In this document: in pieces, positions 16,566 to 21,298 of the stretch | Layout: every line of letters begins with the position of its first letter | Position numbering within the stretch: the first letter of the stretch is position 1 | From: Bacteroidota bacterium | Lineage (GTDB): Bacteria; Bacteroidota; Rhodothermia; Rhodothermales; UBA10348 | Assembly (NCBI GenBank): GCA_029262835.1 | Contig: JAJCYQ010000032.1 | Location: 1-34,937, forward strand | Length of the DNA stretch: 34,937 nt | Direction: 5' to 3' | Translations under genes and position numbers: made by a program | Notes under the pieces: generated by a model | The model's database searches: none | What the model saw: the letters and a program-made list of their open reading frames with translations, nothing else | What the model was told of the DNA's origin: nothing

Positions 16566-17015
16566 TCATTCCTGTCGCGGGTTGACGATAACCACGCGAA
16601 GGGTATCTGCAAATGGAACCACCGCTTCATCTGGCAACCCAAATGACGGAAACAGCCAATAAACGAGCCGACCGGGCTCGGGCGTGTAGTTGTGCTGCAG
16701 AGATCCGTCACCTACAAACTCTGTGTATGGTAGCGGAAAGCTTTCCTTGAACTGGACAAACACTGAGCCGAGACTCAGCACCTCGAGCGTAAGCGCCGGC
16801 ACATCCAGAAACGCAGAAAACATCCGCTGATTGACACCTTCTACGCGGGAAAAATCGGACGGGCTGACGGGCACAAAATGCACCGAAAGTCCCGGCTCAC
16901 CATCGACCCCGTCCGGTCCCGAAGGACCTTCAGGGCCAGTTGGGCCTTCGCAGCCAAGAATAAATACCAGCACGAGGACATGCAGGAATCGACTGAACAG
17001 GTGGGATGTTTTCAT
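16566..17015 (-). CDS. lipoprotein with collagen-like stretch, paralogue 3
   Basis: This is a 149-residue lipoprotein with a lipobox ILGC, directly followed by a collagen-like run of Gly-X-Y units (GPTGPEGPSGPDGVDGEPG). The C-terminal about 110 residues form a beta-rich domain shared with the two upstream paralogues, with landmarks DVPALT, GSVFVQF, FPLP, YWLFPS and TLRVVIVNP. It overlaps the preceding gene by an ATGA. It is the last gene of a four-gene minus-strand operon headed by a secreted metalloprotease. A structural or adhesive surface role is a guess. Base composition is lower in GC than in the flanking genes. Confidence 0.75.
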   Translation of the reverse strand: MKTSHLFSRFLHVLVLVFILGCEGPTGPEGPSGPDGVDGEPGLSVHFVPVSPSDFSRVEGVNQRMFSAFLDVPALTLEVLSLGSVFVQFKESFPLPYTEFVGDGSLQHNYTPEPGRLVYWLFPSFGLPDEAVVPFADTLRVVIVNPRQE

Positions 17016-17452
17016 GGCGGAGATACGACGGTTACAATAAGTCGCCCTAAAAAGGGCCTTCGACTGACTATGTCGTCAGCAGGCTCGCTCCAGAACCCCC
17101 ATATGACAAGGGTGCCCACCGAATAGGTGTAGGTGAGTGACAGTGTAGCGTCTGACGTAAGCAGTATCTGCTGTCTGCCATCTGGCAACGGAAATGCCTC
17201 ATTGGTCACCACTTGAACAAATCCCGAATCAACGACGGACGTTGTAATTGCGGGAACATCCAATTCAATGTGCCATGTCTGGAATTCGTCATCATGGACC
17301 CACGCCAGTGGGTCGACAGACAGGCTGATTCTCTCCACAAATGGCGGCGCCGTGTCGATCCCATCACGTCCCGAAGGACCCTGGGGCCCAACTGGTCCAT
17401 CACAGGCAGCCACAAGTACAAAAAGCAGAAGAGCAGTTCTCTGAGCCATCAT
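17012..17452 (-). CDS. lipoprotein with collagen-like stretch, paralogue 2
   Basis: This is a 146-residue lipoprotein with signal peptide, lipobox VAAC and a short Gly-X-Y run (GPVGPQGPSGRDGID). The C-terminal domain is the most diverged of the three paralogues but keeps DVPAIT, a GFVQV strand, FPLP, a late W and a closing LIVTVVSPP strand in the same order. It overlaps both neighbours by four bases, so translation is coupled through the series. Function unknown. The arrangement suggests tandem duplication followed by divergence. Confidence 0.75.
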   Translation of the reverse strand: MMAQRTALLLFVLVAACDGPVGPQGPSGRDGIDTAPPFVERISLSVDPLAWVHDDEFQTWHIELDVPAITTSVVDSGFVQVVTNEAFPLPDGRQQILLTSDATLSLTYTYSVGTLVIWGFWSEPADDIVSRRPFLGRLIVTVVSPP

Positions 17453-17895
17453 CGTACGAGCGGATTTATCGTCACTATTCGAAGTGTATCGGCCGCTGGC
17501 TGCACCAAGTGGTCTGCCAACCCAGAGGAGGGAATCAGCCAGTATTCCAGGATACCGGCATCGAGCTTGTAATCATGCTTCAGAACCTCGTCGCCTACAT
17601 ATTCCAGGTGAGGCAAGGGAAAGCCATCCTTGAACTGAACAGATACCGAGCCCGCTCCGAGAACTGCCAATGTCAGAGACGGCACATCGATCCGTGCCAT
17701 GCGTAGTCGGGTGCCTGGAAGGTTTTCTACAAACGGGAATCTTGTACTACGCAAATCCACGAGCTGAACGGTCATTGCCGGAATACCGTCTTGTCCGTCC
17801 GCACCTGCCGGACCCGCCGGACCTACAGGGCCTTCGCACGACAACAGGAGGACAGCGGCCACAAGGTATGACAGTTCTGATTTACGGCGTTTCAT
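17449..17895 (-). CDS. lipoprotein with collagen-like stretch, paralogue 1
   Basis: This is a 148-residue lipoprotein. ATG 17895 is chosen because it gives a normal signal peptide (KRRK, hydrophobic core, lipobox LLSC) and starts one base after the protease stop; longer in-frame starts lie inside the protease gene. A Gly-X-Y run (GPVGPAGPAGADGQDG) follows the lipid-modified Cys. The C-terminal beta-rich domain (IDVPSLT, GSVSVQFKDGFPLP, YWLIPSSGL, TLRIVTINP) is clearly homologous to paralogue 3. It is likely a surface or outer-membrane protein, and a partner of the protease is possible but unproven. Confidence 0.78.
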   Translation of the reverse strand: MKRRKSELSYLVAAVLLLSCEGPVGPAGPAGADGQDGIPAMTVQLVDLRSTRFPFVENLPGTRLRMARIDVPSLTLAVLGAGSVSVQFKDGFPLPHLEYVGDEVLKHDYKLDAGILEYWLIPSSGLADHLVQPAADTLRIVTINPLVR

Positions 17896-17896
17896 A

Positions 17897-19699
17897 TTAT
17901 TCAAGGACACTGACTGGCTTGACAATGGATGTCCCATCATCGAATGTGGCCCTAATGATGTATAATCCCGGTGAAACGTTGACGGGATGCCATGATATTT
18001 CATGAACTCCAGGCGCAAGGACGGCGTCATACAACTCATCTACCTCGCGCCCAAGCACATCGAAGACGGCGAGATGCACGCGTGACGGCTTACCAATGTC
18101 ATACCTGATCACAAATTGATGACTTGAAGGATTTGGATAAATATCCAAGGTATTCCGTCCTTCTGTTAGGCTCACATCAGGTTCATCAATTGTTGCATTC
18201 TTGGCGCCGGGCGGCGAAGAGCAGCCAGCCGTACTCGATTCCAGGATCGTAACAGACGTCGAAGCCGTCTGCGTTGAACTCGACACGTCCACCCTCAAGT
18301 CTGTACCTGGGTTGTCGAAAAGCGTGAACAGTATGCTCGGCGTAAATACGGACATATTGGTCCAGGACGATGACCATGTGGGTTTTTCAAACCAGGAATA
18401 CGTACAATTTGTGCACGGCTCATTTAATCCGTTGTCGAAAAACGCATCTGCGTGGAATGTGCACTCTTCCTTGTGCAACATCGTACCAGGCCCGTCTATT
18501 TCTACCGTCAAATCGCCACTTGGTGGCGTCACAGGGCTGCGATAGGATGCAATATCACCAGATGACTCGGCCCATACCCGAGCTACGTCATTGAACGACA
18601 CCGTGCCAGTGGGGTATTCTCCGCCGCCAAATGTCCCCAGCGGACTTGACCAGCGGAGATCTCGGTCGGCAGGTGCCTCTACGTTCAACAGCGATCCCCA
18701 CTGATCTGGCGTCAAAGTGTGGTACCCATGGCCATAAGGAAATGGAACTGTTGTCGTGTCGGTATCGTGCCGTCCACCGACGATATGACCCATTTCGTGA
18801 GCAAACGTATATGTATCCTTGCGACGGAGTGAGGCCATGTCTGAGACAAGAAAGGCCAGGTTGCTCGGCGGCTTGATGTCTATAACGGCACCGTTTTCAT
18901 TTGTGATATCCGACAGGATGGCCGCAACCACATCTGCTCCGTAGGCATTACGCAGGTCAGCTATTGCACTGTTCGTGGACAGGTAATTCAATACGTCGAC
19001 GCTGGTGGTATTATCAGGCATTTCCGGGTCCTGCACAGCACCAAGGTAATGAACAGAACCACTGGCACCTTCCGACTCGTTGATTGCCGTGTTTGTCTGA
19101 CCGACCGCCAGTAGAGCGTCGACCCCAGGGTCTGTAAGAAGGGATGAATAAACAAACAGTACATCTATTTGTCCGGACCCAGAAGAACCTGATTTCTGGA
19201 TACTGTCATTTATGCCGGCTCCAAACGCCACGCCATATTCAGAAATTTGAGACAGTATGGCGTCCTTCTCTTCTCTTCGATCCGGATCAAGCAACTGTAC
19301 GATCGACTGCCCCTGGCCAGCCGTGAACACGTCAAACGAACGCGAGTTGGTGGAAAATCCGCCAGAGAGCTCGCTTCCGTTCAGAACAAACAGCGCGGGT
19401 TTACCGTCGGTCTTTCCTTGCCACAGAAACAGACTGTCAGACTTCGCCCAGTAGCCCAGTGTCTGAAAGGCAATCGGTTTACCCATGTAGGGCAGGTTGA
19501 TCTCGAATTGCGGTCGCTTCAGGATCTCCTTTGCATTGGTTGGAAAGGAGACCGCATCCGCCTTGAGCGTCGCTTCGTCTTGTCGAACGGAAAGTAACCT
19601 GTCTGCCGCACTGCCTCGAACGGCCTCATCAGACACGACATGGAACAGCTCCACAGACTGTCCGCTGACGGGTGACGTTGTACCCATCAAAATCAGCAT
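17897..19699 (-). CDS. T9SS-exported metzincin-type zinc metalloprotease
   Basis: This is a 600-residue extracellular protease. A propeptide-like region (about 1-170) leads to a reprolysin-like catalytic domain with the zinc motif HEMGHIVGGRH at 301-311. Downstream, LRWSSP and GTVSFNDVARVW correspond to conserved segments of bacterial metzincins. The expected Met-turn is GSLLN, with Leu where Met is usual. An Ig/PKD-like region (about 390-490) precedes a type IX secretion sorting domain (LDIYPNPSSH, then PGLYIIRATFDDG) at the C-terminus. As written, the frame starts at ATG 19699 and has only a short signal core without a basic n-region. ATG 19728 on the other side of a (CT)8 tract would give a full signal peptide after loss of one CT. 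It heads the lipoprotein operon and has lower GC than its surroundings. Confidence 0.85.
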   Translation of the reverse strand: MLILMGTTSPVSGQSVELFHVVSDEAVRGSAADRLLSVRQDEATLKADAVSFPTNAKEILKRPQFEINLPYMGKPIAFQTLGYWAKSDSLFLWQGKTDGKPALFVLNGSELSGGFSTNSRSFDVFTAGQGQSIVQLLDPDRREEKDAILSQISEYGVAFGAGINDSIQKSGSSGSGQIDVLFVYSSLLTDPGVDALLAVGQTNTAINESEGASGSVHYLGAVQDPEMPDNTTSVDVLNYLSTNSAIADLRNAYGADVVAAILSDITNENGAVIDIKPPSNLAFLVSDMASLRRKDTYTFAHEMGHIVGGRHDTDTTTVPFPYGHGYHTLTPDQWGSLLNVEAPADRDLRWSSPLGTFGGGEYPTGTVSFNDVARVWAESSGDIASYRSPVTPPSGDLTVEIDGPGTMLHKEECTFHADAFFDNGLNEPCTNCTYSWFEKPTWSSSWTNMSVFTPSILFTLFDNPGTDLRVDVSSSTQTASTSVTILESSTAGCSSPPGAKNATIDEPDVSLTEGRNTLDIYPNPSSHQFVIRYDIGKPSRVHLAVFDVLGREVDELYDAVLAPGVHEISWHPVNVSPGLYIIRATFDDGTSIVKPVSVLE

Positions 19700-19701
19700 G
19701 C

Positions 19702-19717
19702 AGAGAGAGAGAGAGAG
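19702..19717 (-). repeat. (CT)8 simple-sequence repeat at the protease start
   Basis: Eight CT units on the coding strand (AG on the plus strand) lie between ATG 19728 and the in-frame ATG 19699. From 19728 the present frame reads MTRFSLSLSAC and stops at once. With seven units it would read MTRFSLSL, a Cys, and then continue into the protease, giving a complete signal peptide. Length change by slipped-strand mispairing would therefore switch export on or off. Confidence 0.7.
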
Positions 19718-19767
19718 AACCTGGTCATGGGCAGAGCTCCATTTGGCCGAACAATTACTTCTGGGAT

Positions 19768-19796
19768 ATCCTATCGTACCGTGAAGGAAATGTCAA
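19768..19796 (-). promoter_or_regulatory. candidate promoter of the protease/lipoprotein operon
   Basis: On the minus strand TTGACA (19796-19791) is followed after 17 bases by TAGGAT (19773-19768). The predicted start near 19761 would leave about 33 untranslated bases before ATG 19728, supporting that codon as the intended start. The -10 is only a partial match to TATAAT, and the pattern is sigma-70-like rather than the Bacteroidota TAnnTTTG form. Confidence 0.35.
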
Positions 19797-19813: not shown

Positions 19814-20992
19814 TTACCTGACTGCCGCCCGAATCACCTCCAGCGCGGCGTCAAGCGCTTCGTCCGGGATGTTGAGGGGCGGCGCAATGCGGACGAGGGT
19901 GTCGGAGTGGAGCGTCCAGCCGAGTAGCACGCCGTCGGCGAGGCACGCCGAGACAACGCGGGCCGTCTCTTCGGGCGTCTCGAGCACCATGCCGAGCATG
20001 GCGCCCATGCCGCGCACTTCCACAACGCCCGGCAGGTCGAGGGCTTCGCGGACGCGGGCTTCGATGTGGGGCGCGCGGCGGAAGATTTTTTCCTGCACAA
20101 GCGTGCCAAGCGCCGCGTGCGCGGCAGCGCACGAAACAGGGTGTCCACCAAATGTAGTCACGTGGCTCAGCGGCGGATTGTCCCGGAGAGCGCGCATGAT
20201 TTCCGGTCGGCTCACAAACGCGCCGATTGGCATGCCGCCGCCGAGCGCCTTGGCGAGCGTCATGATGTCGGGCACGACGCCAAACTGTTCGGCAGCAAAG
20301 AGCGTCCCGGTGCGGCCCATACCCGTCTGGATCTCATCGAAAATGAGGAGCGCGCCAACGTCCGTGCACCGCGCCCGAAGCGCCTCGTGCCACGCGCGAC
20401 TCGGCACGCGCACGCCGCCCTCGCCCTGGATGGGTTCGGTGATGACGGCCGCGACAGTGCCATCAATCTCGGCGAGCGCATCCATCCGATCAAAGGGAAG
20501 GAAGGTCACGTCCGGGAGAAGCGGCAGGAACGGATCGCGGTAGACGCTGCGGCCCGTGACGGAAAGCGATCCGTGCGTATCGCCGTGATAGGATCCCGCA
20601 AAGGCTATGAGACGGGTGCGGCCCGTCGCCTTTTTGGCGAGTTTCAGCGCGCCCTCGTTCGCCTCCGTTCCGCTCATGGTGAAATAGGCGGTGGAGAGAT
20701 CGCCCGGCAGGACGCTTGCAAGTAGGCCGGCCAGCGCCGACTGCGCCTCCTGGATGAACTCGCCGTAGACCATGACGTGCAGGTGCCGGTCCAGCTGCTG
20801 CTCTATGGCTGCCATGACGGCCGGATGCCGGTGCCCAAGCGAGGAGACCGCGATGCCGCTGATGAGATCCGTCAGGCGGCGGCCGTCCGCGAGCCAGATG
20901 TAGGGCCCCTCGGCGCGGTCCACTTCGAGGGCCATGGGCGCGCTGGACGTCCAGGCCACGTGGCGCTCAAATTGTTCGCGGGCGGTTGTCAT
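19814..20992 (-). CDS. argD: class III PLP aminotransferase (acetylornithine/ornithine type)
   Basis: This is a 392-residue pyridoxal-phosphate enzyme of subgroup II (ArgD/OAT/GABA-T). Visible are the phosphate-binding SGTEANEGALKLA (about 108-120), Asp of IFDEIQTGMGRTG, and the Schiff-base Lys248 in TLAKALGGGMPIGA. Members transfer the amino group between N-acetylornithine (or ornithine, 4-aminobutyrate) and 2-oxoglutarate. The symbol argD is the likeliest, but no arginine gene lies nearby, so ornithine or another omega-amino acid remains possible. ATG 20992 is preferred to the TTG at 20998. It is divergent from the histidine operon, with the his promoter about 60 bases from its start. It is not a HisC, which is a class I fold. 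Confidence 0.8.
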   Translation of the reverse strand: MTTAREQFERHVAWTSSAPMALEVDRAEGPYIWLADGRRLTDLISGIAVSSLGHRHPAVMAAIEQQLDRHLHVMVYGEFIQEAQSALAGLLASVLPGDLSTAYFTMSGTEANEGALKLAKKATGRTRLIAFAGSYHGDTHGSLSVTGRSVYRDPFLPLLPDVTFLPFDRMDALAEIDGTVAAVITEPIQGEGGVRVPSRAWHEALRARCTDVGALLIFDEIQTGMGRTGTLFAAEQFGVVPDIMTLAKALGGGMPIGAFVSRPEIMRALRDNPPLSHVTTFGGHPVSCAAAHAALGTLVQEKIFRRAPHIEARVREALDLPGVVEVRGMGAMLGMVLETPEETARVVSACLADGVLLGWTLHSDTLVRIAPPLNIPDEALDAALEVIRAAVR

Positions 20993-21194: not shown

Positions 21195-21225
21195 ATGCCT
21201 TTTTGACCCACGTTTCCGCGCCTTT

Positions 21226-21298
21226 CCCGCACAATTCGTCCCACACAATTCGTCCCACACGATACTCCCAGCACAATATTTCCCACACATTATTTCCC
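21226..21298 (+). repeat. five degenerate 14-nt tandem repeats before hisG
   Basis: Five consecutive units of the form CCCACACAATTCGT, with lengths 14, 14, 13, 15 and 14, run from the attenuator to the hisG ATG. The first two differ at one base and the last three diverge in the 3' half (CGATACT, ACAATATTT, ACATTATTT). The array is purine-poor and unlikely to fold, so it may keep the ribosome landing region open or bind a protein. Confidence 0.6.

Follow-up and report, generated by a model that had tools for sequence, protein, structure and literature searches.

In excerpts of the respective papers, several loci are described in which simple sequence repeats (SSRs) control the expression of bacterial proteins. 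The oipA gene of Helicobacter pylori carries CT repeats in the signal-peptide region, where slippage turns the gene On or Off through the reading frame, and the repeat patterns vary widely among isolates (PMC10564699). In the opa genes of Neisseria, the leader-peptide region contains CTCTT repeats (PMC5354566), and NalP of Neisseria meningitidis is a phase-variable autotransporter protease (PMC3723659). Since one scan of 378 genomes reported long SSRs for 246 species (PMC11868660), SSR candidates outside of the classic pathogens are, as far as the excerpt of that report goes, not new as such.

The locus examined here lies in a window of 34,937 nucleotides, by which we mean the whole stretch of DNA analyzed. 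As judged from the same excerpts, it resembles oipA in that CT dinucleotides are found in the region coding for the signal peptide and that the frame would be switched by slippage. However, the product of oipA is an outer-membrane protein made by a gastric pathogen, whereas the present gene, from a bacterium that is uncultured and probably environmental, codes for a metzincin carrying a type IX secretion (T9SS) tail, and the isolate variation documented for oipA contrasts with our tract lengths, which were compared between species with one genome each. At an E-value of 0.001, Pfam gave Reprolysin and T9SS-tail matches on the protease and no others, so that it is not of the H. pylori outer-membrane protein type; the window locus would work like oipA without belonging to the oipA protein family. 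With opa it shares a pyrimidine repeat located where the leader peptide is encoded, a frame-based on/off mode and the occurrence of several loci per genome, but the opa unit is a pentamer, and the products are opacity (outer-membrane) proteins of human-restricted bacteria. NalP, too, is a secreted protease whose phase variation depends on a repeat, but this repeat is a homopolymeric C tract inside the coding sequence, and the export of NalP is that of an autotransporter.

We found no paper joining Rhodothermales and phase variation in the open-licence literature, and none of the matches listed there (titles and abstract starts) described such loci in environmental Bacteroidota. What appears unusual is the host, probably a free-living member of the Bacteroidota, and the cargo, a T9SS metzincin. 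The free-living habit of the host bacteria is probable on the basis of one relative's record, that of the congener G001, which belongs to the CG12 series and which we take to be an aquifer groundwater sample.

We propose that the CT tract is a slipped-strand (SSR) contingency locus in the signal-peptide coding region of the protease gene, and give this reading a rough probability of 0.78; with the gene out of frame in this genome and in frame in a sister species, the tract probably acts as a true random on/off switch, a kind best known from host-associated bacteria. The minus strand reads, 5' to 3', ATGACCAGGTT(CT)8GCATGCTGATTTTGATGGGT, and Tandem Repeats Finder (TRF) returned the tract as 19702-19718 with a period of 2, 8.5 copies, and a 100% match. 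Because TCT and CTC alternate in every frame, the repeat always encodes (Ser-Leu)n. The sequence-only reading had described the (CT)8 tract and the ATG at 19728 whose frame ends after 11 codons, which proved correct base for base. It had also stated that the loss of one CT or the gain of two joins this ATG to the protease, and a scripted test agreed: with 7 or 10 units ATG 19728 runs into the 600-aa protease (MTRFSLSLCMLILMGTTSPVSGQ...), and with 8 or 9 units it does not. The 11-codon reading frame is proposed to be the out-of-frame state of the true N-terminus of the protease. The protease frame itself (17897-19699) is open for 600 aa; its first canonical start at (CT)8 is ATG 19699, and upstream of this the frame is open to the TGA at 19795, with an ATA as the sole candidate start. 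The stop codon of the short reading frame lies one base downstream of ATG 19699, which is a possible leaky or re-initiation start.

Coordinates of the features discussed, in positions of the window
Feature	Position	Strand	Details
(CT)8 tract	19702..19717	-	one additional T at 19718; proposed slipped-strand switch
11-codon ORF MTRFSLSLSAC	19693..19728	-	ATG 19728 to stop TGA 19695-19693
ATG 19699, fallback start in the protease frame	19697..19699	-	ATT in G003, thus not conserved
Metzincin-type (M12B reprolysin-like) protease with type IX secretion sorting tail	17897..19699	-	Pfam, TIGR04183
Zinc-binding motif HEMGHIVGGRHD, residues 301-312	18764..18799	-	within Pfam Reprolysin_5 match 227-337
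T9SS type A C-terminal sorting domain, residues 520-594	17918..18142	-	TIGR04183 33.1 bits (cut-off 23); PF18962 27.0 bits (cut-off 27)
Candidate promoter TTGACA-17-TAGGAT	19768..19796	-	10/12 matches
Three short lipoprotein-like ORFs with GPxGPxG stretches	16566..17895	-	17895-17449, 17452-17012, 17015-16566; ends overlap neighbours
Class-III aminotransferase gene, upstream of the protease	19814..20992	-	conserved neighbour in G003 and G001

In the proposed mechanism, the CT run would be placed in a Sec signal peptide, after the start codon and ahead of the cleavage site, where it would encode a (Ser-Leu)n stretch of the hydrophobic part, and replication slippage within the population would add or remove CT units. 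When the number of units equals 1 mod 3 (7, 10 and so on), ATG 19728 would open a preprotein of 609 to 611 aa whose signal peptide looks normal and would be cut ahead of Q, and this preprotein is predicted to be exported by Sec and then by type IX secretion. With the other lengths tried, translation from ATG 19728 would stop within 35 codons, and the leader from ATG 19699 looks too short for good export; in the OFF state, export would presumably be lost. Re-initiation at ATG 19699 could still yield some protease, with a 13-residue leader devoid of positive charge. As the repeat reads as Ser-Leu whatever the frame, it would build hydrophobic sequence regardless of its length; the exit frame alone would decide the outcome, and a change of three units would keep the frame and only lengthen the core by a Ser-Leu pair. 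The benefit might be bet-hedging over an exoprotease.

The assignment of the gene product to the metzincins (M12B) is based on the presence of both the zinc-binding motif, which fits the metzincin pattern HExxHxxGxxH(D), and the family profile (Reprolysin_5, 35.6 bits; cut-off 27). As for type IX secretion, the sorting domain is present and a Sec signal peptide is found in the ON frame only, signal peptides being judged throughout by hydropathy and by eye. Searching the PDB sequences with the protease (at E 0.1) gave no match. Upstream of the gene, the TTGACA hexamer of the candidate promoter is kept in G003 and G001, together with weaker -10-like hexamers at equal spacing (by eye), and a promoter scan of the region was not above chance (3 found, 2.4 expected). 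A GGCCAA box on the minus strand (window 19743-19748), located between the candidate promoter and the ATG, is kept in all three congeners aligned and is a possible regulatory site. Window positions 21225-21289 contain an imperfect tandem array of 4.6 copies of a 14-base unit, TCCCACACAATTCG. Downstream, the three lipoprotein-like ORFs probably form one operon with the protease gene, and the OFF state may also reduce their translation; a collagen match was seen in just one of the three, below the threshold (17.5 versus 27.2 bits).

The locus was compared between the genome of the window (G000) and three congeners, the sister species G003 and the species G001 and G002, with one genome assembly per species. 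The protease of G003 is 92% identical in amino acids and has (CT)7 in frame: the ATG equivalent to ATG 19728 opens a 609-aa ORF with the N-terminus MTRFSLSLCILILMGTTSPVSG^QF. Thus, the earlier expectation that one unit fewer would give a normal protein describes the natural state of G003, with 22 residues before Q. In G001, where the protein is approximately 52% identical, the equivalent site carries (CT)15, out of frame; the hypothetical in-frame N-terminus would be MIRL(SL)nVILAFVAISSESKA^QT. This copy is also damaged downstream by an internal stop and a frame change, and these further lesions count for gene loss in the G001 lineage. The tract is therefore (CT)8 and OFF in G000, (CT)7 and ON in G003, and (CT)15 and OFF in G001, next to the same aminotransferase gene. 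An invariant tract, named in the sequence-only reading as what would speak against a phase switch, is not what is seen at the species level, with 7, 8, and 15 units, and the comparison across species supports the switch reading.

A tract of this kind is not expected by chance. None was seen in 100 dinucleotide shuffles of the window, and a first-order Markov model predicted 0.0006 (CT)8 starts per 3.45-Mb genome on both strands; chance was rejected as an explanation on these grounds. The corresponding expectation for (CT)7 is 0.26 over the 27 family genomes (about 82 Mb), so that (CT)7 by itself is not far beyond chance across these genomes, a point against the switch reading. An SSR census of 174,937 bases of G000, namely the window and 140 kb of contig C46 (homopolymers of at least 9, di- and trinucleotides of at least 6 units, 4-6-mers of at least 4 units), returned two tracts only, the (CT)8 and a (CT)17 on C46; as C46 was picked for carrying the latter, the census measures background and not enrichment. 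The codon TCT accounts for 6.5% of the Ser codons in 12 hand-picked ORFs of the window, so ordinary codon preference does not account for an uninterrupted TCT-CTC run.

(CT)7 was found in 3 of the 27 family genomes, where the matches collapse to four tracts, each of which stands 6-11 nt past the ATG of a gene whose product is exported, with CT on the coding strand. They represent two independent loci, since the tract of the window locus is common to three species. The shorter pattern TCTCTCTCTCT gave five tracts in the four genomes of the genus, the fifth of which (G003 contig C34, 14 nt) is not at a signal peptide. With cleavage sites assigned by eye, the in-frame products VSG^QF, VSG^QS, SKA^QT, and THA^QQ fit the Q-rule, which, in an excerpt of the source, places Q directly after the signal peptide in Bacteroidetes (PMC10653852). 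In the terms used for SSR loci, we found that the tract is beyond chance, has a unit that is not a multiple of 3, lies in the 5' coding region, and differs in length among related genomes with a change of frame (one genome per species); the product would act at the surface or outside, as judged by the ON-frame signal peptide and the T9SS tail, which is usual, not obligatory, for such loci.

General SSR richness was also considered and was rejected. (CA)6 tracts matched in 2 of 27 family genomes, and runs of at least nine G in all four genus genomes, among the matches listed. Ten G/C-run loci of G000 and G003 (L112-L121), with runs of up to 20, were examined. G runs as switches were set aside, as 6 of the 10 are near contig ends and no ORF longer than 116 aa spans the G15 run on contig C2 of G000. 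In five of them (L112, L114-L117), a run of G directly adjoins a run of C or is separated from it by a few bases; such pairs are possibly strong hairpins that break the assembly.

A whole-genome search of G000 for (CT)7 gave one further tract, the (CT)17 on C46 (locus L046, C46:273-2490), which begins 11 nt past the ATG of a gene for a 722-aa T9SS-tailed protein and is out of frame. In frame, the protein would start MVYAR(SL)nLVILGFLPTQTHA^QQ (continuation LVILGFLPTQTHA^QQ). Its T9SS tail scored 33.7 bits (cut-off 23), and an HEVGH motif is present; no peptidase profile exceeded the cut-off, and 'protease-like' thus refers to this motif alone. A PDB sequence search gave no match for this protein either. 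Its only sizeable relative in the seven other genomes searched is 29% identical (G004). Since the gene has no close relative in these genomes, the C46 locus is independent of the window locus.

To survey wider groups, we used patterns that ignore the reading frame and require an ATG 3-15 nt away. For the class, the pattern was AG repeated seven times and, after a gap of 3-15, CAT. It matched in 12 of 244 genomes; by eye, the signal-peptide arrangement, with the tract within or immediately ahead of a signal-peptide-like stretch and an ORF after it, is present in six (G000, G001, G003, G035, G452, and G494) and absent from G384, G511, G519, G532, G072, and G039. A similar eight-unit pattern matched in 12 of 394 genomes of a phylum sample, again by eye with the arrangement in four (G000, G001, G165, and G452) and without it in eight (G450, G181, G166, G286, G306, G360, G384, and G039). 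In the order, (CT)10 in the same arrangement matched in 6 of 114 genomes, G000 and G001 among them; the other four (one locus each in G072, G111, and G113, three in G039; L052-L057) had no signal-peptide look among the matches listed, and this reading left out one further tract, on contig C23 of G111. Tracts on contig C35 of G039 (166 aa in frame from the ATG) and in G532 (382 aa open downstream) were excluded from the switch set, as no hydrophobic export signal follows the tract. L052 of G111 and L055-L057 of G039, from another genus of the order, are CT/AG tracts of 17-44 units that are not at signal peptides, and by eye the L052 tract may interrupt a gene on the opposite strand.

Besides the lineage of the window, three lineages of the class and one elsewhere in the phylum show the arrangement. 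In G452, three lipoprotein-like genes (L102, L103, L104), MKTKT(F)(SL)n...IKAC with a lipobox-like IKAC, carry (CT)10, (CT)9, and (CT)9, all out of frame, and L102 on contig C14 has just 42 aa open downstream. G494 has a Peptidase_S74-domain protein in frame (L122) and a metzincin on contig C214 (L130), whose second, overlapping ATG reads into the protease frame and which was counted as OFF from the first ATG. The useful similarity of this metzincin to that of the window is confined to 19 residues around the zinc motif, which suggests independent recruitment of the tract by the two metzincins. Three similar genes of G165 (L099-L101) start ATGAA(CT)n with 13, 11, and 18 units and have a hydrophobic core after the tract; L100 alone is in frame. 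In G035 (L126), (CT)8 stands right after ATGTC, out of frame, ahead of the signal-peptide-like RTLVVLCLGFLVAESSVAQ and a 499-aa downstream frame, whose protein has esterase-like matches below the cut-off. The G452 and G165 proteins scanned (L103, L104, L100, and L101) showed no family above the cut-off.

Counting two loci in G000, one each in G001, G003, and G035, three in G452, two in G494, and three in G165 (n = 13), we found 3 tracts in frame and 10 out of frame. This is compatible with the one-third expected for free phase and hard to reconcile with merely tolerated coding repeats held in one frame. The split is also what dying genes might show, and 2 of the 10 OFF loci (G001 and G452-C14) are otherwise damaged; within the genus, 3 of 4 tracts are OFF, which speaks against the switch reading.

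These observations bear on an explanation that we consider unlikely, though the most credible of the alternatives: the repeat would be neutral, signal-peptide cores tolerating Ser-Leu, slippage having grown the tract, and the out-of-frame copies being genes on their way to loss. It would account for the lesions of the G001 copy and for the short downstream frame of G452-C14, and the gene seems dispensable, as in G002 (same genus, 99% complete) similarity is confined to the sorting tail among the matches listed. However, the protease is under purifying selection, with a dN/dS of 0.157 between G000 and G003 over 600 codons, a value that is compatible with very recent gene loss in G000. Moreover, pure tracts are kept while the proteins fall to about 52% identity, and tracts recur on exported proteins in several lineages. 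Homologues from other genera of the family (G010, G012, and G019) have no tract and, by eye, ordinary-looking signal peptides ending before Q, showing that the tract is not needed for export.

That translation really begins at ATG 19699, with the CT tract a mere 5' leader, the alternative offered by the sequence-only reading, agrees with the position of this ATG as the first canonical start of the protease frame in G000. The sister species weakens this idea to the point of making it highly improbable: the corresponding codon is ATT, by which ATG 19699 is also rejected as the ancestral start, and the ATG before the tract reads directly into the protease. In addition, the leader from ATG 19699 has only 13 residues ahead of Q, none of them positively charged, and the codon following ATG 19728 differs synonymously between the two species (ACC in G000, ACT in G003). 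An assembly or sequencing error, with a true (CT)7 and a gene always in frame, is conceivable for the consensus of a 103-contig assembly, yet slightly less probable still, since a tract of 16 nt is shorter than any common read and the (CT)17 of C46 and the (CT)15 of G001 are likewise out of frame; in its simple form it was rejected. We regard as the least probable explanation that ribosomal or transcriptional slippage on the repeat makes both frames from one DNA state: the sequence is slippage-prone, but the best-known cases of programmed slippage involve homopolymers and heptamers, and it is the length of the DNA tract itself that differs between species.

Two metzincins of different families, that of the window and that of G494-C214, both carry a CT tract, and switch-like loci on exported proteins number two in G000 and three similar ones each in two other genomes. 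It is conceivable, and we offer this as a tentative view, that free-living Bacteroidota repeatedly and independently recruited a CT tract in the signal-peptide core, for exported enzymes and lipoproteins alike, as a switch and, in three-unit steps, as a means of adjusting core length, giving small phasomes on shared exoproteases and not on host-facing antigens. If the loci do switch, random on/off control would not be solely a tool against hosts, and if the exoprotease switches, a clone would split into secretors and non-secretors.
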